This document shows, in pieces, positions 31,827 to 55,127 of a DNA stretch of 64,000 bases. This DNA is from Bacteroidota bacterium (GTDB lineage: Bacteria; Bacteroidota; Rhodothermia; JANXDC01), in assembly GCA_025998875.1 (NCBI GenBank), contig AP024675.1:1337549-1401548 (forward strand), read 5' to 3'. How positions within the stretch are numbered: position 1 is the first letter of the stretch; every line of letters starts with the position of its first letter. A program made the translations under genes and the position numbers. The notes below the pieces were generated by a model. It did no database searches. It worked only from the letters and a program-made list of their open reading frames with translations, and had not been told where the DNA came from.

Positions 31827-31852
31827 TGGCGGCCAAAGCTCAGGTCGCTTTG

Positions 31853-31948
31853 TGCCGTGCTGGGGGTGTCCCCGCCTTTTGCGGCGGGGGCTGAGAGCAT
31901 ACCCTTTGAACCTGATCCGGGTCATGCCGGCGAAGGGAAAGCACGGCG
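31853..31948 (+). promoter_or_regulatory. TPP (THI-box) riboswitch aptamer
   Basis: P1 pairs TGCCGTGC (31853-31860) with GCACGGCG (31941-31948). The conserved THI elements are present in order: GGGGGTGTCCCCGCC..., CTGAGAG followed by ATACCC, then TGAACCTGATCCGGGTCATGCCGGCG and AAGGGAAAGC. This aptamer binds thiamine diphosphate. It stands 130 nt before the TonB receptor gene, so thiamine sufficiency should shut off this uptake locus. The rest of the 31732-32077 gap is promoter and expression platform. Confidence 0.96.
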
Positions 31949-32024
31949 GGATAGCCGCTCTTCCATCGCCCCCAGAGTGCGTGCGGCTCTGGAAGCCGCC
32001 GACGGGGGTCTTCGCTCTTCCTCC

Positions 32025-44965: not shown

Positions 44966-45889
44966 TCAGGGCACGATCTTGTTCAGGGGATACTCGATGA
45001 TCCCCTCCGCACCGCGCCTTTTGAGCTCCGGGATGAGCTGGCGCACGAGGCTTTCGTCGATGATCGTCTCCACGGCCACCCAGCCGCTCAGGGCCAGCTC
45101 CGAGATCGTCGGATTGCGCAAGGCGGGCAGGATGGAGACGATCTGCGGCACGTCCTCGCGCCGGCAGTTGAGTTTAAGGCCCACTTTGCCCTCGGCCAGA
45201 ATGGCGCCCTGCACCAAGAGGGCCAGATTTTCGATTTTTTGCCGTTTCCAGGGGTCGTTCCAGGCCTGAGGATTGGCGATGAGCTGGGTGTTGGACTCCA
45301 GCACCACCTCCACGATGCGCAGCTTGTTGGCCCGCAGGGAGGCACCCGTTTCCGTCACCTCCACGATGGCGTCGGCCAAATAAGGGGCTTTGACCTCCGT
45401 CGCCCCCCAGGAGAACTCCACCTGGGCCTCTACACCGTGCTGAGCCAGCCAGCGGCGTGTGATGTTGACGACTTCCGTGGCGATGCGCTTGCCCTGCAGG
45501 TCCCGTACGGACTGGATGGGGGAATCCTCCGGAACGGCCAGCACCCAGCGCACAGGCCGAAAGCTCGCCTTGGAGTACACCAGATCGGCCACCACGAGCA
45601 CGTCGGCTTCGGTCTCCAGCACCCAGTCCTTTCCCGTAAAACCGGCATCAAAAAGGCCCTGTGCCACGTAGCGGGCCATTTCCTGGGCCCGCACGAGCAT
45701 GGGGGCGATCTCCTCGTCATCGGAGATGGGAAAATATGAGCGCTCCTGGACGTGGAAGCCGAAACCGGCCTTTCTAAGCAGGTTCAGGGTGGCTTGCTGC
45801 AGGCTGCCTTTGGGCAGGCCTAGGCGCAATCGGGGTCTGCCGTCGCTTTCCAGGCTCAGAAAGCGGCCTATTGCGCTCTGTGTTTCCAT
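44966..45889 (-). CDS. hisG: ATP phosphoribosyltransferase, long form (HisG-L)
   Basis: 307 residues: the catalytic domains ([71 protein letters not shown]) plus a C-terminal ACT-like regulatory domain ([26 protein letters not shown]) that binds histidine, so HisZ is not needed. It makes phosphoribosyl-ATP from ATP and PRPP, the first step of histidine synthesis. No other his gene is adjacent. It follows the DUF4837 gene by 6 nt, and that gene overlaps trpA, so hisG may lie on the trp transcript. CAGGAG precedes the ATG. Confidence 0.95.
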
Positions 45890-45895
45890 GGTCTT

Positions 45896-46996
45896 TCACT
45901 CCTGGTGCTCGTTTTCCGTCGCGGCTATGGCGGCCAGCTCCTCGCGGGTGCGGAAGGTGTAGAGGATGGCCTCCAGCTGTCGGAGGAATTCCCGCTTATC
46001 ATAGCGCGGGGCGAAGACCGATCCATCCAGCATATAGAGGCGCTGCTGGCGCGGATCGAAGAAAGTAATGTTCAGAAACGGCCCCCCCATGGCGTCGCCG
46101 GCCATGCGCCACAGCCCCCGGGTTTCGTAGGCGAAGCGGCCGTGGAAGTTGATCACCCGCTGTACGATGGGCATGCGCCGTTCCAAGGTGACGTAGCTGT
46201 CCTCGTATCGGCCTCGCAGGTGGGTCCGGGTCAAGCTGTCGCGGGTGGCCAGGATCCATTCCGGGGTGATCGCATCGGGCCGGGCGCGTTCCCGCCACCA
46301 GACGAAAAACCATCGCTGGTTATCCGGAAGCAGGCGTCGGATCCAGACGAAGTTCGCCGTATCCCGGGCGATGAGGTAATCGTGCTGGATGCGCACGCGC
46401 CAGCCGTGTCGCCTCAGGAGGCTGTCGGCCAGGGCCCGCTGCTCGGCGCGCCGGAAAAGTTCCCTTTCGGTGCGCTGTCGTTCGAGGCGATCAAAGAGGT
46501 CGCGCAGCTCGGGGGCTTTGTTGCGCACAAAGGCGATGAGATCCCCCTCCGTGGCGGCGCTCAGGTAGAGCACCTGCTGGTCCTGGGCCCAGAGGTCCCG
46601 GCGGGCCACGCTCAAGGGGTTCCCGGCTCGTACGTGGGCCTGTACGGCGGAGTCCATGCGCGCCCGCAGAAAAGCCCCTGTGGGCGTGGGGCTGTCGAGA
46701 GGGGCGATGAAGACCAAGTTGCGGTCTCGTTTGAGCCGATCAAAGCTCTCCTGATCCTGCAGGGGCTTGAAGGCCAGATCGAACCAGGGCTCCGGCTGGG
46801 GAAGGGTGGGGATATCGGCGCCGAAGGTTTCCCGCACCGCCTCACCCAAGGGACCGGCCCAGTCGGTGGAATCCATCACCACAGTAACCAGCCCCGGACG
46901 ACCCACCGAGGGGGGAAGGAACTCCGAGGGGCTGAGCCGACAGGACGCGGCCGAGAATAACACAACAGCGAGTCCGCACAGGTTACGAGGCGACAT
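45896..46996 (-). CDS. DUF4837 lipoprotein
   Basis: 366 residues with a lipoprotein signal peptide (LCGLAVVLFSAASC, lipobox Cys at about 19). The DUF4837 family is largely confined to Bacteroidota and relatives. Visible blocks: FKPLQDQESFDRLKRDRNLVFIAP, GWRVRIQHDYLIARDTANFVWIRR, INFHGRFAYETRGLWRMAGDAMGGPF. Function unknown. It overlaps the end of trpA by 14 nt and precedes hisG by 6 nt. Confidence 0.85.
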   Translation of the reverse strand: MSPRNLCGLAVVLFSAASCRLSPSEFLPPSVGRPGLVTVVMDSTDWAGPLGEAVRETFGADIPTLPQPEPWFDLAFKPLQDQESFDRLKRDRNLVFIAPLDSPTPTGAFLRARMDSAVQAHVRAGNPLSVARRDLWAQDQQVLYLSAATEGDLIAFVRNKAPELRDLFDRLERQRTERELFRRAEQRALADSLLRRHGWRVRIQHDYLIARDTANFVWIRRLLPDNQRWFFVWWRERARPDAITPEWILATRDSLTRTHLRGRYEDSYVTLERRMPIVQRVINFHGRFAYETRGLWRMAGDAMGGPFLNITFFDPRQQRLYMLDGSVFAPRYDKREFLRQLEAILYTFRTREELAAIAATENEHQE

Positions 46997-47801
46997 GAAG
47001 GATCTCCTTCTTCAGCGTGCGCACCCAGGAGGTGATCTGCTCGATCCAATCCGGTTCCGGATAGCTGCGTTCGATGCGTTCTACCAGGGCGCTTCCGATG
47101 ATGATCCCGTCGGCTCGCGACAGAAGCTGGCGTGCGTCTTCGGCCGTGGCGATGCCGAAGCCCACATACAGGGGGTTGGTGCGCACCACGGAGCGGGCGC
47201 GCTCCAGAAAGGCCATGGCCTGTCGGGCCACGTCCTGACGGGCTCCGGTCACGCCGGTAACGGAGACGGCATATACGAACCCCCGACTTTCCTGGTCGAT
47301 CCGGCGCAGGCGCTCCTCCGAAGAAGTCGGAGCGGCCAGCAGCACCAGGTCCACCCCGATGCGGTCGAGCGCCTCGCCGATCCAGGATCGCTCCTCGAGC
47401 GGCAGATCGGCCACGATCACCCCATCGACGCCGCAGGCCCGGGCCTGGCGGGCAAAGGCCTCCGGCCCGTAGGCCAGGATGGGGTTCAGGTAGCCCATGA
47501 GCACGATCGGCGTGCGGGAATCGCGTTCTCGAAAGGCGCGTACGTGATCGAAAATCCAGCCCAGATCGACGCCCCGGCGCAGCGCCTGCTGGCTGGATCG
47601 CTGGATCGTGGGGCCATCGGCCAGGGGATCGCTGAAGGGTACCCCGATCTCCAGAAAATCCGCCCCTGCCTCGACCAGCCTGTGCCACAGGGGCAGGGAG
47701 GCCTCCGGATCCGGGAAACCGGCTGTTACATACAGCCCGAGCACGGACCGAGGACGCTGGGCCAGCAGCCGCAGTCGGGAAGCGGCCTTCTCAGGCGACA
47801 T
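46983..47801 (-). CDS. trpA: Tryptophan synthase alpha chain
   Basis: 272 residues. Active-site acids in [19 protein letters not shown] and [14 protein letters not shown]; loop residues [12 protein letters not shown]; phosphate-binding [10 protein letters not shown] and GIIIGSALV. It cleaves indole-3-glycerol phosphate to indole and glyceraldehyde 3-phosphate. It overlaps trpB by 11 nt. Confidence 0.96.
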
Positions 47802-49008
47802 CTTCTTCTGCCTCCTCGAAAGCGCTCACTATGGTGGCCAGGTCCTTATCTCCTCGCCCGGAGCAGTTGACCACGATGAGATCTTCCGGATTGGTTTCGG
47901 GCATGAGGCGGTTCAGGAACGCGATGGCGTGCGCCGTCTCCAGCGCAGGTAGAATGCCCTCCAAGCGGGTGAGCAGGCGCACGGCCTGGAGCGCCTCGGA
48001 ATCCGTTGCCGCCTCGTAGTGGACGCGTCGGATATCGCGCAGGTAGCTGTGTTCCGGACCTACGCCGGGGTAGTCCAGGCCGGCCGAGATGGAGTGGGCC
48101 GGCAGTACCTGCCCGTCTGGGGTCTGCAGCAGATAGGAGTAGGCCCCGTGTAAGACGCCGGGTCGACCCCGACTGAGCGTGGCCGCGGTGTGATCCGTAT
48201 CCAGGCCCAGTCCGGCCGCCTCTACTCCGTAGAGCTGTACGGAGGGCTCTTGGAGGAAGGGGTAAAAAAGCCCGATGGCGTTGGATCCCCCGCCCACGCA
48301 GGCGACCAGATGGGTCGGCAGCCGGCCCTCGCGCCGGAGCATTTGCTCACGAACCTCGTCGCCGATGATCCGCTGAAAATCCCGCACCAGTCGGGGATAG
48401 GGATGCGGGCCCACGACGGAGCCGATCACATAGAAGGTCGTGCGCACGTTCGTGACCCAGTCCCGGATGGCTTCGTTGGTGGCATCTTTCAGCGTGGCGC
48501 TTCCGCTCCGGACCGCCCGAACCTCGGCTCCGAGCAGCTGCATGCGCTCCACGTTGAGGCGCTGGCGCTCCATGTCGCGAGCGCCCATGTAGACGACGCA
48601 CTCCAGCCCAAAGCGGGCGCAGGCGGTGGCCGTGGCCACCCCGTGCTGTCCGGCCCCGGTTTCGGCGATGATGCGTCGTTTGCCCATGCGGAGGGCGAGC
48701 AGCACCTGGCCCAGGGCATTGTTGATCTTATGGGCGCCGGTGTGGCAGAGGTCTTCTCGTTTCAGGTAGATGCGTCCCCGGCCGAAATGCGCCGTCAAGC
48801 GTTCGGCGTACGTCAGCGGGGTGGGCCGACCCACGTATTCAGCCAGCAGGGATCGATACGCATCCCAGAAGGCGGGATCCTGGCAGGCGGATGCGTAGGC
48901 GGCTTCAAGTTCCTCTAAGGCCGGGATCAGGGTTTCCGGAACGAAACGACCCCCGTAGGGGCCGAAACGGCCCCGGGCATCGGGTTGACTCGGCAGGGCA
49001 GTGGTCAT
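47791..49008 (-). CDS. trpB: Tryptophan synthase beta chain
   Basis: 405 residues. PLP lysine in [46 protein letters not shown], phosphate-binding [14 protein letters not shown] and [14 protein letters not shown]. It condenses indole with serine to give tryptophan in the alpha2beta2 complex. This is the TrpB1 type, suited to work with TrpA. It overlaps trpF by 4 nt. Confidence 0.97.
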
Positions 49009-49682
49009 TGTGCTTCTCCTCTGCGGGGTGCTTCCAGTTCAGCCCAGGCGGAAAAGAGCGCCTGCACACGGGCTGGATCCTTGCGGCCGGGCTCGGACTC
49101 CAGGCGGCTGTTTACGTCCAGCCCGTAGGGGCGCACCGTGCGGGCGGCCAACAAGAGGTTATCCGGACCGATGCCGCCGGCCAGAAACAGGGGGAATTCC
49201 GAGGCCATGGCGCGCGCCAGCCGCCAGTCGAAGCACTCCCCCGTGCCGCCCCAGAGATCGCCGGATCGGGTGTCCAGGAGCAGGTAATCGACCAGCTCCC
49301 GGTAGGGTTCGGCCAGCGCGCGCAGATGTTCGATGCTGGCATCATGGGCCGCATGCAGCGTTTTGATGATGCGCAGACCCCGGTCTCGTAGCCTCCGGAT
49401 TTGTTCCGGGCTCTCAAGGCCATGCAGCTGCACGGTCCGGATGCCCGTGGCGGCAACGATCTGTAGGATCTCCTCGGGATCGGATCCCAGGAAGACCCCG
49501 ACCGGTTCCGGGCCATGGATCCAGGCCAGGATTTCTCGCACCCGCTCCGGTTCCACGTAGCGAGGGCTTCCGGGATAGAAGATGAACCCGAGGTAATCGG
49601 CGCCCAGCGCCGCTACGAGCCGGGCATCATCCAGATTCGTGATCCCGCAGATCTTCAACCGGGGTTTGCTCAAGTAGGGCAT
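49005..49682 (-). CDS. trpF: Phosphoribosylanthranilate isomerase
   Basis: 225 residues. Catalytic Cys in LKICGIT (near residue 10) and catalytic Asp in [24 protein letters not shown] and [10 protein letters not shown] for phosphate binding; C-terminal [16 protein letters not shown]. The family pattern is GVDVSSGVE, so the SSG-to-NSR change is noted. The ATG at 49682 overlaps trpC by 56 nt; a start at 49730 would overlap further. Confidence 0.92.
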
Positions 49683-50463
49683 AGAAGGCGCGTCTGAGCT
49701 GGTAGAGGGCTTCTCCCGGGTCGGGCGCACGCATAAGGGATTCCCCGATCAGAGCGGCCTCGACCCCGTGTCGATACAGCAACAGCAGATCTTCGGCCGA
49801 CCGGATGCCGGACTCTGAGACCCGCACCACGTTCGGGGGCAGGTGCGCAAGCAGGCGTATGGAATGCATCAGATCGACCGTAAACGTGCGCAGGTTCCGG
49901 TTGTTTACTCCCACCACGCGCACGAGATCGAAGTCCACCCGATCCAGTTCTTCCGGGTCGTGTACTTCCAGGAGCACATCCAGCCCCAGTGCGCGGGCGC
50001 CCTGGCAGAGATCGCGCAGCTGGACGGGGTCCAGAATGGCGGCGATGAGCAGGACCGCATCGGCCCCGAAAGCGCGCGCCTCGTAGAGCTGAAACTCGTC
50101 GATGATGAAGTCCTTGCGCAACAGGGGCCGGTCAATCCAGGGCCGGATGTGCTTGAGGTTGTCCAGAGAGCCTCCGAAGAAGGCCTCTTCGGTGAGCACG
50201 GACAGCGCCGAGGCGCCGGCGTGTCGATACCCGATGGCGATCTGGACCGGATCGATACGGCGGCGGATCTGACCGGCCGATGGGGAGGCGGGTTTGATTT
50301 CCGCGATCAGGGCCATGGGACCTCCTCGGCGCAGGGCGTCGGCCAGGCCCAGGGTGGGGGTAGAGAAATACGGCAGGCTCTCCAGGTAGGCGCGGCTGTA
50401 GCGCTGTTTGCGCCTCATGAGCGTCGCACGCGTCTCTTCGAGAATGCGATCCAGGATGGTCAT
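49627..50463 (-). CDS. trpC: Indole-3-glycerol phosphate synthase
   Basis: 278 residues, TIM barrel. LIAEIKPASPSAG contains the catalytic Glu and Lys; LSVLTEEAFFGGS, LLRKDFIIDEFQLYEAR, LEVHDPEELDR, GVNNRNLRTFTVD and VSESGIRSAEDL follow the family order. It closes the indole ring from the carboxyphenylaminodeoxyribulose phosphate. It overlaps trpD by 4 nt. Confidence 0.96.
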   Translation of the reverse strand: MTILDRILEETRATLMRRKQRYSRAYLESLPYFSTPTLGLADALRRGGPMALIAEIKPASPSAGQIRRRIDPVQIAIGYRHAGASALSVLTEEAFFGGSLDNLKHIRPWIDRPLLRKDFIIDEFQLYEARAFGADAVLLIAAILDPVQLRDLCQGARALGLDVLLEVHDPEELDRVDFDLVRVVGVNNRNLRTFTVDLMHSIRLLAHLPPNVVRVSESGIRSAEDLLLLYRHGVEAALIGESLMRAPDPGEALYQLRRAFYALLEQTPVEDLRDHESG

Positions 50464-51500
50464 AGCCGTTTGGCTCCCGGTATCGTCCTGCGCAGGGATT
50501 GCAGCACGGCGCGGGCGCGCCCCTCGTCGAGGCTTTTTCGGGCCAGGCTCAGCCCTTCGGCCGGAGTGTCGGCGGCGCCGGCCACGTAGAGGGCGAAGGC
50601 CGCATTCAACAGGACGGCGTCCCGGTAGGGTCCGGGAGCTCCGTTGAGCAGCGCCTCCAGGGCGTGGGCGTTTTCCTCCGGATCCCCGCCCCGGAGCGCC
50701 CCGGGCTCGACGCGCTCCAGGCCCAGATCTTCGGGAGAGACGCGATAGGTGCGCAGACCGAAATCGGCGCGGTATTCGAAGACCGTGCTGGGGGCGCAGA
50801 GCGAGAGCTCATCCCAGCCGTCCTCGCCATGCACGGCCAGGACGTGTTCGGCCCCGAGTCGGGCGGCCACCTGGGCCATCTGCTCGGCCGCTTCCCGGGA
50901 AAAAGCCCCCATGAGCTGTCGGCGGACGGGGGCCGGATTCAGAAGCGGGCCCATCAGATTAAAGCAGGTTCGCACACCCAGCGCACGCCGCACCCCGGAA
51001 ACCCGCCCCATAGCGGGATGGTATCGGGGGGCGAAGAGGAAAACCATCCCGCATCGCCGCAGCGTTTCAGCCGCCTCCTCGGGTCCCAGTTCGATGGCTA
51101 TGCCCAGCGCCTCGAGCACATCGGCCGAACCGGATCGGCTTGAGATGCCCCGGTTGCCGTGTTTGGCTACGGGTACCCCGGCCCCGGCCACCACGAAGGC
51201 CACGGCGGTGGAAATGTTGCGCGTGCCCGATCCATCCCCCCCGGTGCCGCATACATCCACCAGTCGGGGGTGGGAGAAGGGCACCGGCACAGCGGCCTGG
51301 CGCATGACCTCTACGAAGGAGACGAGTTCCTCAAGCCGCTCCCCCCGGGCGCGCAGGCCCATGAGAAAGCCGGCGATTTCGGCCTCCGTGGCCCCTTCCT
51401 CGATGATCTGCCGCAGAGCGGATCGGGCCAGCTCGCCCTCCAGCTCCTGATGCTCGGCCAGGCGCATGAGGGCCATTCGCAGAGGGGAGGGGGAAATCAT
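50460..51500 (-). CDS. trpD: Anthranilate phosphoribosyltransferase
   Basis: 346 residues. PRPP site VCGTGGDGSGTRNISTAVAFVVAGAGV, then KHGNRGISSRSGSADVLEALG and FLFAPRYHPAM, FNLMGPLLNPA. It transfers phosphoribose to anthranilate. It overlaps trpG by 4 nt. Confidence 0.96.
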   Translation of the reverse strand: MISPSPLRMALMRLAEHQELEGELARSALRQIIEEGATEAEIAGFLMGLRARGERLEELVSFVEVMRQAAVPVPFSHPRLVDVCGTGGDGSGTRNISTAVAFVVAGAGVPVAKHGNRGISSRSGSADVLEALGIAIELGPEEAAETLRRCGMVFLFAPRYHPAMGRVSGVRRALGVRTCFNLMGPLLNPAPVRRQLMGAFSREAAEQMAQVAARLGAEHVLAVHGEDGWDELSLCAPSTVFEYRADFGLRTYRVSPEDLGLERVEPGALRGGDPEENAHALEALLNGAPGPYRDAVLLNAAFALYVAGAADTPAEGLSLARKSLDEGRARAVLQSLRRTIPGAKRL

Positions 51501-52090
51501 GATTCGGCCTCCTGTCTACCTCGAAGCGCGCTTCGCACCCAGCTTGCTATAAGCTCCGCGCCAGGACGGGTGAGCACGGATTCGGGATGAAACTGCACCC
51601 CTTCCACAGGCCAGTATCGATGGCGCAGACCCATGATCAGGCCGTCTTCGGTCCAGGCGGACACCTCGAGTACCTCCGGCAGGCTTTCCCGATCCACGAT
51701 CAGGCTGTGGTACCGGGTGGCCTGGAAAGGATTGGGCAGGTTTTCGAAGATCGTTCGTCCGTCGTGGTAGATCGGGCTCGTTTTTCCGTGTACCAGCGCC
51801 GGAGCCCGTACGATTCGTCCGCCAAAGACCTCTCCAATGGCCTGATGACCCAGGCAGACGCCCAGGACGGGGATGCGTTCCCCCAGGTGTTCGATAACGG
51901 CTTCCGAAATCCCGGCCTCTCGAGGTCGGCCCGGACCCGGAGAGAGCACGATCCCGGTCGGGTGGAGCGCTTCCAGCTCCCGGAGGGAAATGGTATCGTT
52001 GCGAAAAACCCGCACCTGAGCGGTGACCCGATAGATCAGGTGCACGAGGTTGTAGGTGAAGGAGTCGTAATTGTCGATGACCACGATCAT
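51497..52090 (-). CDS. trpG: Anthranilate synthase component II (glutamine amidotransferase)
   Basis: 197 residues, class I amidotransferase: VVIDNYDSFTYNLVH, SPGPGRPREAG, nucleophile in PVLGVCLGHQAI, and His-Glu pair in GVQFHPESVL. It supplies ammonia to TrpE. The gene is separate from trpE, and trpS lies between them. Confidence 0.95.
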   Translation of the reverse strand: MIVVIDNYDSFTYNLVHLIYRVTAQVRVFRNDTISLRELEALHPTGIVLSPGPGRPREAGISEAVIEHLGERIPVLGVCLGHQAIGEVFGGRIVRAPALVHGKTSPIYHDGRTIFENLPNPFQATRYHSLIVDRESLPEVLEVSAWTEDGLIMGLRHRYWPVEGVQFHPESVLTRPGAELIASWVRSALRGRQEAES

Positions 52091-53139
52091 ATTTTCCGCA
52101 GGGCGAAGCTTTTCGAGTACGTTGTCAACAGCCCCGTTGCCTGGCGCACGCGCTCCATGACCGCTTCGGCCACCTCCCGGGCCCGCTGGCCGCCCTGGCG
52201 CAGGATGTCCCGCACCTCATCGGGATGGGCCTCCCAGTAGCGGCGCCGCTGACGGGCTTCCTCGAAGTAATGCTCCATGAGCTCGTAGAGGCGCTCTTTG
52301 GCCTGTCCGTATCCGTATCCGCCACGCAGGTAGGCCTGCCGAATCTCCTCTAGTTCCTCCGGGGTGGCAAACAGCTTCAAGAGGGCAAAGACGGTGCAGC
52401 GGTCCGGATCCTTGGGCGCCTCCAGCGGGGTGGAGTCCGTTACGATGCTCATGATGCGTTTACGCAGGGCCGAGCCGGAGGCGAAGATCTCGATCGTATT
52501 CCCGTAGGATTTGGACATCTTCTGCCCATCGATGCCCGGGACCACGGCCACCTCGGGGTGGATGTAGGGCTCCGGTAGCTTGAAGACCTCGCCATACAGG
52601 GTGTTGAACTTCTGGGCGATATCCCGCGTGAACTCCAGATGTTGTTTCTGGTCCTGCCCTACGGGTACGATATCGGCCTCATAGATGAGGATATCGGCGG
52701 CCTGCAGTACCGGATAGGTGAGCAGGCCCGCCACGGGCGAAAGTCCCCGGGCGATTTTGTCTTTGTAGGCGACGCCTTTTTCCAGGAAGCTGACCGGCAC
52801 CAGACAGGTGAAGATCCAGGCCAGTTCGGTCACCTGGGGCACATCGCTCTGCACAAAGAAGGTGGCCTGTTCCGGATCCAGCCCCAGAGCCAGATAGTCC
52901 ATGGCCACCTCAAGCGTGTAGGCTTCCAGCAGCTCCCGATCGTTGAGCGAGGTGAGCGCGTGGTAGTTGGCGATGAAGTAAAAGGCCCGGTTCCCATACT
53001 GAAAGGCCAGGTGTTGCCGAATGGCCCCAAAGTAGTTGCCGATATGTAGCCGGCCGGAGGGTTGGATGCCGGACAGGATCAGGCGCCCCTTGGGAAGCTG
53101 GGCGGCGAGTGCCCGGACGTGATCGGCTACGGTGCGCAT
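52087..53139 (-). CDS. trpS: Tryptophanyl-tRNA synthetase
   Basis: 350 residues, class Ic synthetase. GIQPSGRLHIGNYFGA carries the HIGH-type motif; KMSKSYGN the second signature; the binding residues DQKQHLEF and YKDKIARG are present. It charges tRNA-Trp. Position inside the trp operon, overlapping trpG by 4 nt and 14 nt after trpE, puts charging capacity under the same attenuator that senses charged tRNA-Trp. Confidence 0.96.
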   Translation of the reverse strand: MRTVADHVRALAAQLPKGRLILSGIQPSGRLHIGNYFGAIRQHLAFQYGNRAFYFIANYHALTSLNDRELLEAYTLEVAMDYLALGLDPEQATFFVQSDVPQVTELAWIFTCLVPVSFLEKGVAYKDKIARGLSPVAGLLTYPVLQAADILIYEADIVPVGQDQKQHLEFTRDIAQKFNTLYGEVFKLPEPYIHPEVAVVPGIDGQKMSKSYGNTIEIFASGSALRKRIMSIVTDSTPLEAPKDPDRCTVFALLKLFATPEELEEIRQAYLRGGYGYGQAKERLYELMEHYFEEARQRRRYWEAHPDEVRDILRQGGQRAREVAEAVMERVRQATGLLTTYSKSFALRKI

Positions 53140-53153
53140 AGGTGCTCAACTCC

Positions 53154-54584
53154 TTATAGTTGCAGTCCCGTTGCGGCCAGATGGAGGGCCCTTTCCAGGG
53201 CCCGGGCTTTATTGCGTGTCTCCTCGTATTCTCGGGCGGGATCGGAATCGGCCACGATACCGGCTCCGGCCTGGTAGAAAAGCCGCCCCTGCGTGGCCAG
53301 GAAGCTGCGGATCCCGATACACATATCCAGGTTGCCGCGCCGATCCAGGTATCCCACAGCGCCCGCATAGGGGCCCCGTGATTCGGGTTCCAGCTCGTGG
53401 ATGATTTCCATGGCCCGCACCTTGGGCGCGCCGCTCACGGTACCCGCTGGGAAACAGGCCCGGAGCGCATCCACGGGCCCCAGATCCCCACGCAGGCGGG
53501 CTACGAGATGGGATACCAGATGCATCACGTGGGAATAGCGTTCGACGTAGGCATATCGCTCCACGCGTACCGATCCCGGCTCGGCGATACGCCCCAGGTC
53601 GTTTCGCCCCAGATCCACCAGCATCACATGCTCGGCCTGCTCTTTTGGATCGGCCCTCAGCTCCTGCTCCAGCTCGGCGTCCTCCTGCGGACTATGCCCC
53701 CGGCGCCGGGTTCCCGCAATGGGCAACAGCTCCACCCGGTCTGCTTCAACCCGCACCAGGACCTCGGGGGAGGATCCGAAGAGCTGGAAGCTCCCGAAGT
53801 CCAGATAGAACAGGTAGGGCGAGGGATTGATGATGCGCAGAGCCCGATATACCTGAAATGGATCTCCCGCATAGGGCACCGACCAGCGCTGGCTGAGCAC
53901 AACCTGGAAGATGTCCCCCGCGGCGATGTAGCGCAGGGCGCACCGTACGGCTTTTTCGAAGGCCGCCCGGTCCTGATGGGCCTCGGGTTCCTGGCTCAGA
54001 AGGGCGAACCGCACCCCGGAGGGATCGATCTCCTCCGGAGCGGGACGGCACAGGCGTTCGCGGAGGGCGTCCAGGCGCTGTTCGGCCTCCGAGGCGCTTT
54101 CGGCCAGGGTCAATAGCACAAGCAGACGGCGCACGTGATCGAAGACGATCACCGTATCGTAGAGGCCGAAGCAGGCCTGAGGAACGGAAAATGGGCTTTT
54201 TCGGGGTTTGGGCAGCCGTTCCAGGGCGCGCGTGGCCTCATAGCCGATATACCCCACCGCGCCGCCCACGAAACGGGGCAGCTCCTGCGCCAGCTCCCCG
54301 ATCTCCTCCCGAGGCCAGAGGGAGGAAAGCTGCTCCAGCATGGTGAACACATCCGGCTTTTGGCTTACCCTGCCGGCCAGCTCCAGGTGCGCTTCTCCTT
54401 CGTGGGCGACCAGGCGGCCTGTGGGGTGGGAGCCGATGAAGGAATAGCGACCCAGGCGTTCTCCGCCCTCTACGGATTCGAGTAGAAAGGAGAACGTACC
54501 GGGCTGTCGGAGCCGCAGGTAGGCCGACACCGGCGTGAGCAGGTCGGCTACGAGCTCGCGTCTGTAGAGCCGCTTCAGGCGCAT
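53154..54584 (-). CDS. trpE: Anthranilate synthase component I
   Basis: 476 residues. N-terminal SAYLRLRQPGTFSFLLESVEGGERLGRYSF includes the tryptophan feedback pocket (LLES); the chorismate domain has GDIFQVVLSQRW, SPYLFYLDFG, PIAGTRRRG, DLGRNDLG, and CFPAGTVSGAPK near the end. It converts chorismate and ammonia to anthranilate. The ATG at 54584 lies about 14 nt after the T-run of the attenuator; the frame stays open into the leader, but that is not coding. Confidence 0.96.
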   Translation of the reverse strand: MRLKRLYRRELVADLLTPVSAYLRLRQPGTFSFLLESVEGGERLGRYSFIGSHPTGRLVAHEGEAHLELAGRVSQKPDVFTMLEQLSSLWPREEIGELAQELPRFVGGAVGYIGYEATRALERLPKPRKSPFSVPQACFGLYDTVIVFDHVRRLLVLLTLAESASEAEQRLDALRERLCRPAPEEIDPSGVRFALLSQEPEAHQDRAAFEKAVRCALRYIAAGDIFQVVLSQRWSVPYAGDPFQVYRALRIINPSPYLFYLDFGSFQLFGSSPEVLVRVEADRVELLPIAGTRRRGHSPQEDAELEQELRADPKEQAEHVMLVDLGRNDLGRIAEPGSVRVERYAYVERYSHVMHLVSHLVARLRGDLGPVDALRACFPAGTVSGAPKVRAMEIIHELEPESRGPYAGAVGYLDRRGNLDMCIGIRSFLATQGRLFYQAGAGIVADSDPAREYEETRNKARALERALHLAATGLQL

Positions 54585-54597
54585 GCTCTCGGGCAAC

Positions 54598-54635
54598 AAA
54601 AAACGCCCACCGGTTGCGCAACCGGTGGGCGTTTT
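54598..54635 (-). terminator. trp attenuator terminator (3:4 hairpin)
   Basis: On the minus strand, ACGCCCACCGGTT (54632 down to 54620), loop GCGC, and AACCGGTGGGCGT (54615 down to 54603) form a perfect 13-bp stem, extendable by A:T pairs to 16, ending in a T-run (complement of 54598-54603). It lies between the leader peptide and trpE, so it stops transcription when the leader is read through. Confidence 0.93.
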
Positions 54636-54726
54636 GCGATTTCCTGGTTCTTTCCTGGCGGCTATGCGCGCCCATCCCGCCCACCGGTCCGCGCGTCGGA
54701 CCAGCGCCACCACCAACCGTGGGCGG
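54620..54726 (-). promoter_or_regulatory. trp leader: mutually exclusive 1:2 and 2:3 stems
   Basis: Segment 1, CCGCCCAC (complement of 54719-54726), lies just before the Trp codons. Segment 2, ACCGGTGGGCGG (54677-54688), lies just after them. Segment 3, beginning CGCCCACCGGT, is the 5' arm of the terminator. Segments 1:2 pair over 8 bp; 2:3 pair perfectly over 11 bp; 3:4 is the terminator. A ribosome stalled at the Trp codons covers segment 1, frees segment 2 and lets 2:3 prevent termination. Confidence 0.92.
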
Positions 54727-54748
54727 TATGGAGGCACATCATGTCCAT
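54662..54748 (-). CDS. trpL: trp operon leader peptide (WWWRW)
   Basis: A 28-codon frame: ATG at 54748 and TAG at 54662-54664. It contains the run GWWWRW, four Trp in five codons (54701-54715), preceded by MDMM and followed by SDARTGG. Tryptophan is otherwise rare, so this density at this site identifies a regulatory leader peptide. Translation speed over the TGG codons reports the level of charged tRNA-Trp. No Shine-Dalgarno is visible; the promoter puts the transcript start within a few nucleotides of the ATG, so translation is probably leaderless. In-frame ATGs at codons 3 and 4 are alternatives. Confidence 0.92.
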   Translation of the reverse strand: MDMMCLHTAHGWWWRWSDARTGGRDGRA

Positions 54749-54755
54749 GCCGGCG

Positions 54756-54787
54756 CAAGTATACAGAAAAGCCCGCCGGCAAGTCAA
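54756..54787 (-). promoter_or_regulatory. trp operon promoter
   Basis: On the minus strand TTGACT (54787-54782), an 18-nt spacer and TATACT (54763-54758) fit the classical -35/-10 pattern. The same place also fits the Bacteroidota pattern: TATACTTG is one mismatch from TAnnTTTG. Transcription should begin about 0-5 nt before the trpL ATG. Confidence 0.7.
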
Positions 54788-54838
54788 GCCGCCGCGGGCC
54801 GTTGGCGTATCCTGATCGGGCTCATCCGGATCGTCTCG

Positions 54839-54923
54839 TACCCGGGGTGGGACTCGAACCCACACGGCCGCGAGGGCCACTTGATTTTGAGTCAAGCGCG
54901 TCTGCCAGTTCCGCCACCCGGGC
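54839..54923 (-). tRNA. tRNA-Leu(CAA)
   Basis: 85 nt, CCA not encoded. Acceptor GCCCGGG with CCCGGGT, D arm TGGCGGAACTGGCAGACGC, anticodon loop CTCAAAA (anticodon CAA, reads UUG), type II variable arm GGCCCTCGCGGCC, and T loop GGTTCGAGTCC. It lies about 50 nt upstream of the trp promoter. Confidence 0.97.
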
Positions 54924-55050: not shown

Positions 55051-55127
55051 TGGTACCCTCGGCAGGACTCGAACCTGCGACCTTCTGCTCCGGAGGCAGA
55101 CGCTCTATCCACCTGAGCTACGAGGGC
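55051..55127 (-). tRNA. tRNA-Arg(CCG)
   Basis: 77 nt with encoded CCA. Acceptor GCCCTCG with CGAGGGT, D arm AGCTCAGGTGGATAGAGC, anticodon loop CTCCGGA (anticodon CCG, reads CGG), T loop GGTTCGAGTCC. Confidence 0.97.

Follow-up and report, generated by a model that had tools for sequence, protein, structure and literature searches.

A predicted ribosome-mediated trp attenuator with a probably leaderless leader ORF is widespread in a class of Bacteroidota

A short Trp-rich ORF and a set of competing hairpins were found directly upstream of trpE on the minus strand of the analyzed window, a stretch of 64,000 nucleotides of contig AP024675.1 (Table 1). We consider this element very probably to be a ribosome-mediated trp attenuator that would sense charged tRNA-Trp. 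The mechanism named in the original prediction is backed by a Trp-rich frame conserved among relatives, helices that exclude each other and carry compensatory changes, a strong terminator, and the trp operon downstream. The comparative evidence indicates that ribosome-mediated trp attenuation is a common rule in a Bacteroidota class.

Table 1. Features of the trp leader and of the operon downstream (positions in the window).
Feature	Position	Strand	Remarks
Predicted trp operon promoter, TTGACT-18-TATACT	54758..54787	-	10/12 match
Promoter boxes	TTGACT 54787-54782; TATACT 54763-54758	-	18-nt spacer
Leader ORF (trpL-like), 28 codons, MDMMCLHTAHGWWWRWSDARTGGRDGRA	54662..54748	-	ATG 54748, stop ending 54662
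In-frame ATGs within leader ORF	54742 and 54739	-	
Regulatory codons 12-16, Trp-Trp-Trp-Arg-Trp	54701..54715	-	
Segment 1, CCGCCCAC	54719..54726	-	pairs with segment 2
Segment 2, ACCGGTGGGCGG and flank	54677..54689	-	within leader ORF; pairs with segment 1 or 3
Segment 3, AAAACGCCCACCGGTT	54620..54635	-	partner is segment 2 (antiterminator) or 4 (terminator)
Segment 4, AACCGGTGGGCGTTTT	54600..54615	-	terminator 3' arm
Intrinsic terminator T-run, T6	54598..54603	-	
trpE, anthranilate synthase component I	53154..54584	-	TIGR00564, 526.9 bits vs cut-off 517.7
trpS, tryptophan--tRNA ligase	52087..53139	-	TIGR00233, 294 bits
trpG, anthranilate synthase component II	51497..52090	-	TIGR00566
trpD, anthranilate phosphoribosyltransferase	50460..51500	-	TIGR01245
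trpC, indole-3-glycerol phosphate synthase	49627..50463	-	NF001377
trpF, phosphoribosylanthranilate isomerase	49005..49730	-	NF002298 best match, below its cut-off
trpB, tryptophan synthase beta	47791..49008	-	TIGR00263
trpA, tryptophan synthase alpha	46983..47801	-	TIGR00262
DUF4837 protein	45896..46996	-	PF16125; overlaps trpA by 14 nt
hisG	44966..45889	-	PF01634; starts 6 nt after DUF4837

The 28-codon minus-strand peptide with four Trp in five codons, claimed from the sequence of this locus, was present upstream of trpE at 54748-54662. Trp occupies leader codons 12, 13, 14, and 16 (WWWRW), a density with a chance of about 7e-8 per five-codon window at the Trp frequency of the neighboring proteins (1.1%). 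Outside the Trp run and the codons forming segments 1 and 2, the peptide was poorly conserved in the class. The TTGACT-18-TATACT sequence was the only promoter match in a scan of the leader stretch (0.1 expected), and transcription is predicted to start 0-5 nt from the leader ATG. Two tRNA genes, tRNA-Leu(CAA) at 54838-54923 and tRNA-Arg(CCG) at 55051-55127, both on the minus strand, lie just upstream of the trp promoter, and two tRNA genes are also found upstream of it in the same-genus genome L002.

The 1:2, 2:3, and 3:4 pairings of the original prediction, together with the T-run, were all confirmed. Segments 1 and 2 match exactly over 8 bp (CCGCCCAC, 54726-54719, with GTGGGCGG, 54684-54677), and the 2:3 helix comprises 11-12 bp (ACCGGTGGGCG, 54688-54678, with CGCCCACCGGT, 54631-54621). 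The 3:4 terminator hairpin (54635-54600; AAAACGCCCACCGGTT-GCGC-AACCGGTGGGCGTTTT) has 16 bp, four basal pairs being A:U, and folded alone with a dG of -28 kcal/mol; 13 bases separate the end of the T-run from the trpE ATG (54584). This terminator was not listed by a simple promoter/terminator scan of the leader stretch, because the scan needs a T-run past the stem and four T here pair with the preceding AAAA. Compared with 200 dinucleotide shuffles, pairing in the window was stronger for both 2:3 (z -5.3, 0/200) and 1:2 (z -2.8, p 0.01).

The folding of 2:3 against 3:4, proposed as a check on the original prediction, was examined stage by stage with a masked ribosome footprint and the polymerase at successive positions. 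The expected switch appeared in these stages; full-length equilibrium folding always gave 3:4 and, being uninformative by itself, was rejected as a test of the switch. While segment 4 was unmade, the 12-bp 2:3 helix formed with the ribosome A site at Trp codon 12, 13, or 14 and was abolished with the ribosome at the stop codon. The 12-bp helix did not form with the ribosome at codon 16 and the polymerase just past segment 3, and a half-made segment 4 with the ribosome at the stop still allowed 9 bp of 2:3. Once segment 4 was complete, 3:4 won whatever the state of the ribosome, so that antitermination must act before segment 4 emerges, which is the usual kinetic assumption. With no ribosome and segment 4 unmade, 2:3 and not 1:2 was predicted; basal termination without translation therefore rests on kinetics beyond this folding.

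From these parts, their conservation and covariation, and the predicted folds, we infer termination, translation, and a Trp response of the leader as follows. The polymerase would start at or very near the leader ATG, and a ribosome would load on the 5' end of the RNA and translate the leader. When charged tRNA-Trp is scarce, the ribosome would stall at codons 12-14 and cover segment 1; 2:3 would then pair before the polymerase has completed segment 4, and transcription would proceed into trpE-trpS-...-trpA (DUF4837-hisG). When Trp is plentiful, the ribosome would continue past segment 2, reach the stop codon about 15 nt further on, and cover part of segment 2, so that 2:3 could not form, 3:4 would, and transcription would end just before trpE. 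In a finished leader without a ribosome, 1:2 and 3:4 would form, leading to termination. The second gene of the operon is trpS, the genome's only gene for a Trp-tRNA ligase, so the switch would also feed back on the maker of its own signal. The leader ORF ran through segment 2 in 36 of the 38 leaders with a placeable segment 2 (three further leaders, in which the segment-2 match fell on the terminator, were left out of this count); in L033 and L052, the leader stop lies just before segment 2.

Covariation was analyzed in an alignment (A2) of 31 leaders chosen for clear geometry, with a structure derived from the same leaders. The core of the alignment was CAGTGGG / CCCACTG / AGTGGG. Helix 2:3 was paired in 89.6% of cells and helix 3:4 in 93.1%, percentages that lean upward because the leaders were picked for geometry and the structure was taken from them. 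The both-side changes, in which related sequences share events, are stronger evidence than these percentages and numbered 21 in helix 2:3 (6.4 in shuffles) and 16 in helix 3:4 (4.4 in shuffles). The covariation of 2:3 was 0.241 versus 0.143 in shuffles, and none of 500 shuffles reached the observed covariation in either helix. When the partner was slid by 1-3 columns, 2:3 pairing fell to 57% or less. Compensatory stem changes in relatives, on which the original prediction was to be judged, were thus found in both 2:3 and 3:4. Segments 2, 3, and 4 change together, which fits the need of a competing-hairpin model. Dinucleotide-shuffle counts covered 35 of about 46 leaders; 2:3 pairing exceeded the shuffles (p<0.05) in 32 of these 35, and the 1:2 stem in only 3, being absent in the low-GC family. 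By eye, the segment 1 core was seen only in L002 (GCCCAT) and family f3 (GCCCAC) and was missing in most other families. Given this poor conservation, the role of the 1:2 stem here may be minor.

The 5' ends of the leaders were examined for promoter elements. Of 45 distinct leaders, 36 had a TAnnTT hexamer whose end lay 5-10 nt upstream of the leader ATG, compared with an average of 4.3 and at most 11 in shuffles and with 2 of 59 trpE start codons. This spacing fits the Bacteroidota -7 box, for which the consensus is TAnnTTTG as cited in PMC7366714, and implies that transcription begins at the ATG or a few nt from it. In the window, TATACT stands in place of TAnnTT, with its end 9 nt upstream of the leader ATG. 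These findings suggest that the leader mRNA is probably leaderless, which would imply that transcription and translation are tightly coupled at the 5' end, in a phylum noted for making weak use of Shine-Dalgarno sites. In L002, TATACTTG is kept further upstream and AGAAAGGGG precedes the ATG; its 5' region is longer, so not every leader of this type is leaderless. Leaderless trp leaders have been described in Sinorhizobium meliloti (trpL; PMC7298713) and Streptomyces lividans (trpL1, MFAHSTRNWWWTAHPAAH; PMC8079986), and only about 3.7% of 5' UTRs in Bacteroides are <10 nt (PMC7366714).

We then considered the distribution of the element, using TrpE loci from 60 genomes: the present one, one of the same genus, and 58 of the same class. 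The lack of a Trp-rich frame in relatives had been set beforehand as the outcome that would count against an attenuator; a Trp-rich short ORF, mostly with WWW, followed by a terminator was present before trpE in 48 of the 60. The 12 genomes without the element belong to three families (all three of f5, six of f10, and three of f7). Two f5 loci, L032 and L043, have no WW leader; by eye, a conserved single-Trp ORF (MVKHYISSVVNWQSLLTT / MVKHYISPVVNWQRLPTT) precedes a terminator upstream of trpE, and this ORF is perhaps a reduced attenuator. For the Balneolaceae, which lie within the class, the leader in the named record L064 is MMKPNVHTNWWWPGRTYMAVESL, and its terminator is of the same type. An RNA model of the leader, R1, matched 154 of 196 class genomes (E<=0.01), and its only match in the present genome was the trp leader site (E 9e-11; the site belongs to the R1 training set).

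Outside the class, in a sample of the phylum Bacteroidota, R1 found WWW leaders before trpE in L171, L174, L185, L186, and L187, before trpB in L173, and before a TrpB-like gene in L172. RF01692 did not match the five leaders before trpE, and RF00513 reached only 31-32 bits in three of them. Weak R1 matches in L175 and L176 (outside the class) and in L181 and L188 (inside) were terminators lacking a Trp leader, and we did not count them as attenuators. Among the at least 80 TrpE loci listed for named genomes, a biased sample, an ORF with WW or W.W and a terminator occurred only in L061 and L064 of Bacteroidota and L066 of Calditrichota. In the last of these (Calditrichota bacterium M_MetaBat.96), a leader with WWWW, MNGFLFKYTPKKSWWWWTLTRSGWRW, and then a CCCACTCC...GGAGTGGG terminator lie upstream of trpE. 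A BLAST search of the leader against plasmids gave no match. In this branch of Bacteroidota, the attenuator proves to be both old and widespread. The full case had been called notable for its lineage, a view that we do not share: within the class it is the rule, comparable leaders are found in other Bacteroidota, and Rfam already holds Bacteroid-trp (RF01692).

In E. coli trpL, segment 1 contains the Trp codons and the stop codon precedes segment 2, whereas here the Trp codons come after segment 1 and before segment 2, and the stop lies about 15 nt past segment 2. The claim that all enterobacterial parts were present in order and spacing was accordingly too strong, as the ORF spans segment 2, the Trp codons are outside segment 1, and the class does not conserve the 1:2 stem. 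Like the enterobacterial Trp_leader (RF00513), the element has an ORF with Trp codons, competing 2:3 and 3:4 helices, a U-rich terminator just before trpE, and presumably control by a stalled ribosome. It differs in being probably leaderless, in having trpS in the operon, and in the result of a search for the Trp repressor TrpR (PF01371), which gave no match in the genome even at E<=10. RF00513 scored 16.5 bits on the leader against a gathering cut-off of 41, which is not significant, and had no match in the genome at E<=0.001. Attenuators were reportedly found in Bacteroidetes/Chlorobi by Vitreschak and co-workers in 2004.

Bacteroid-trp (RF01692; cut-off 49 bits) was published for Bacteroidetes in 2010 (PMC2864571). 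It is likewise an RNA of this phylum before trp genes, but differs in sequence and size; it matched none of the 60 class genomes (E<=0.01), the control Bacteroides ihuae was matched, and L173, with its WWW leader upstream of trpB, scored 63.4 bits. Current Rfam models miss the trp attenuator in all 60 class genomes tested. As in the leaderless attenuators of Actinobacteria and S. meliloti, the transcript would open with the leader ORF, given the start predicted here. A complementary triple is conserved across two hairpins in Actinobacteria (PMC1262725), a different phylum, with gGCC-rGCy-GGCC in place of the CAGTGGG/CCCACTG/AGTGGG core found here. Another paper of 2010 regarded leader peptide systems as known only from Proteobacteria, Actinobacteria, and its own Firmicutes hisS case (PMC2965389), and the literature searched yielded no paper on trp attenuation in Rhodothermia. 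As far as we can tell, the kind of element and its presence in the phylum were known, and its class-wide conservation and layout are documented here.

The terminator might instead be the constitutive end of the upstream tRNA-Leu transcript, the trpE promoter following it and the short ORF being decoration. Two tRNA genes do lie upstream on the same strand, and terminators commonly stand before operons, but the single promoter match precedes the leader ORF, and the 13 bases between the T-run and the trpE ATG leave no room for another. Moreover, segment 2 is complementary to a terminator arm and covaries with it throughout the class, and the run of Trp codons is conserved. We regard constitutive termination as very improbable.

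T-box RNAs or TRAP control trp genes in some other bacteria, and a riboswitch, a T-box, or a TRAP-like protein could in principle work the terminator, with the Trp-rich ORF not acting as the sensor. However, T-box (RF00230) had no match in the genome at E<=1, and Rfam at gathering thresholds returned over the window only tRNAs and a TPP riboswitch (31852-31956, plus strand, 66.2 bits), with no aptamer at the leader. The ORF and the hairpins take up the whole leader, of about 150 nt, and we find control by another sensor scarcely credible. An additional action in trans of the leader peptide or the terminated RNA, like that of peTrpL/rnTrpL, would be compatible with an attenuator. The layout resembles that of S. 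meliloti, in which trpL is leaderless and both the terminated RNA and the peptide act in trans (PMC7298713), but the poor conservation of the peptide beyond the Trp run and the segment 1 and 2 codons suggests no selected peptide function, and we consider such action unlikely.

The operon that the attenuator would control runs from trpE to trpA with mostly overlapping genes. The start codon of trpF is uncertain, its longest frame overlapping trpC by 104 nt. Profile searches found trpS and hisG in single copy in the genome, and trpS was located 3' of trpE in 29 of 30 loci of relatives. The ten-gene order trpE...trpA-DUF4837-hisG was shared by the same-genus genome and by two other families (L192, L193, L196), and the order up to DUF4837 in two more loci of relatives. 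These results suggest that DUF4837 and hisG are probably co-transcribed with the trp operon, and hisG, encoding the first enzyme of histidine, may fall under the Trp attenuator. The operon under control would thus include trpS, the source of the sensed signal, and possibly hisG. No match to leuA was found in the genome (TIGR00973 search).

The R1 model also picked out candidate attenuators for other amino acids. Its weaker matches included Cys/Met-rich leader ORFs of Balneolaceae-type genomes (e.g., MCVMCMCCCMCMPRGSGTDMSK), sharing the segment-2 core and terminator of the trp leader, before sulfur genes (L178, L179, L180, L182, L189, L197-L199, L201, L202, L205, L206, and L209-L211). Such leaders precede a rhodanese gene in L180 (MNTQNQIHNFSMIPTTMCVMCMCCCMCMPRGSGTDMSK), a CitMHS-type permease in L182 and, by sequence, also in L209-L211, PAPS reductase in L200, and sulfite reductase in L205 and perhaps L183/L184. 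Significant 2:3 pairing was found in 13 of 15 tested, a count that is not independent as R1 selects that core, and those tested had no Rfam match. Mycobacteria are known to have leaderless short ORFs that respond to Cys (Canestrari 2020, as cited in PMC9031893), and the Cys-rich leaders here are possible candidates for cysteine attenuators before sulfur-assimilation genes. We tentatively raise the idea, which we hold to be somewhat less than an even chance, of an old portable module: a leaderless ORF whose last codons ('S-G', CAGTGGG) form segment 2, a fixed spacer, and a matching terminator, with the regulatory codons exchanged (Trp before trpE, Cys/Met before the Balneolaceae sulfur genes). 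If true, one chassis would serve different amino acids. In L203 and L207, Met/Cys-rich leaders (MNIFGQTIMCQMMCSMQMQMCCMNC... and MCDMFCAMQMHMSMQMQMCCMNC..., respectively) with a terminator were observed ahead of genes encoding long proteins whose N-terminus is CarboxypepD_reg-like (TonB-receptor-like).
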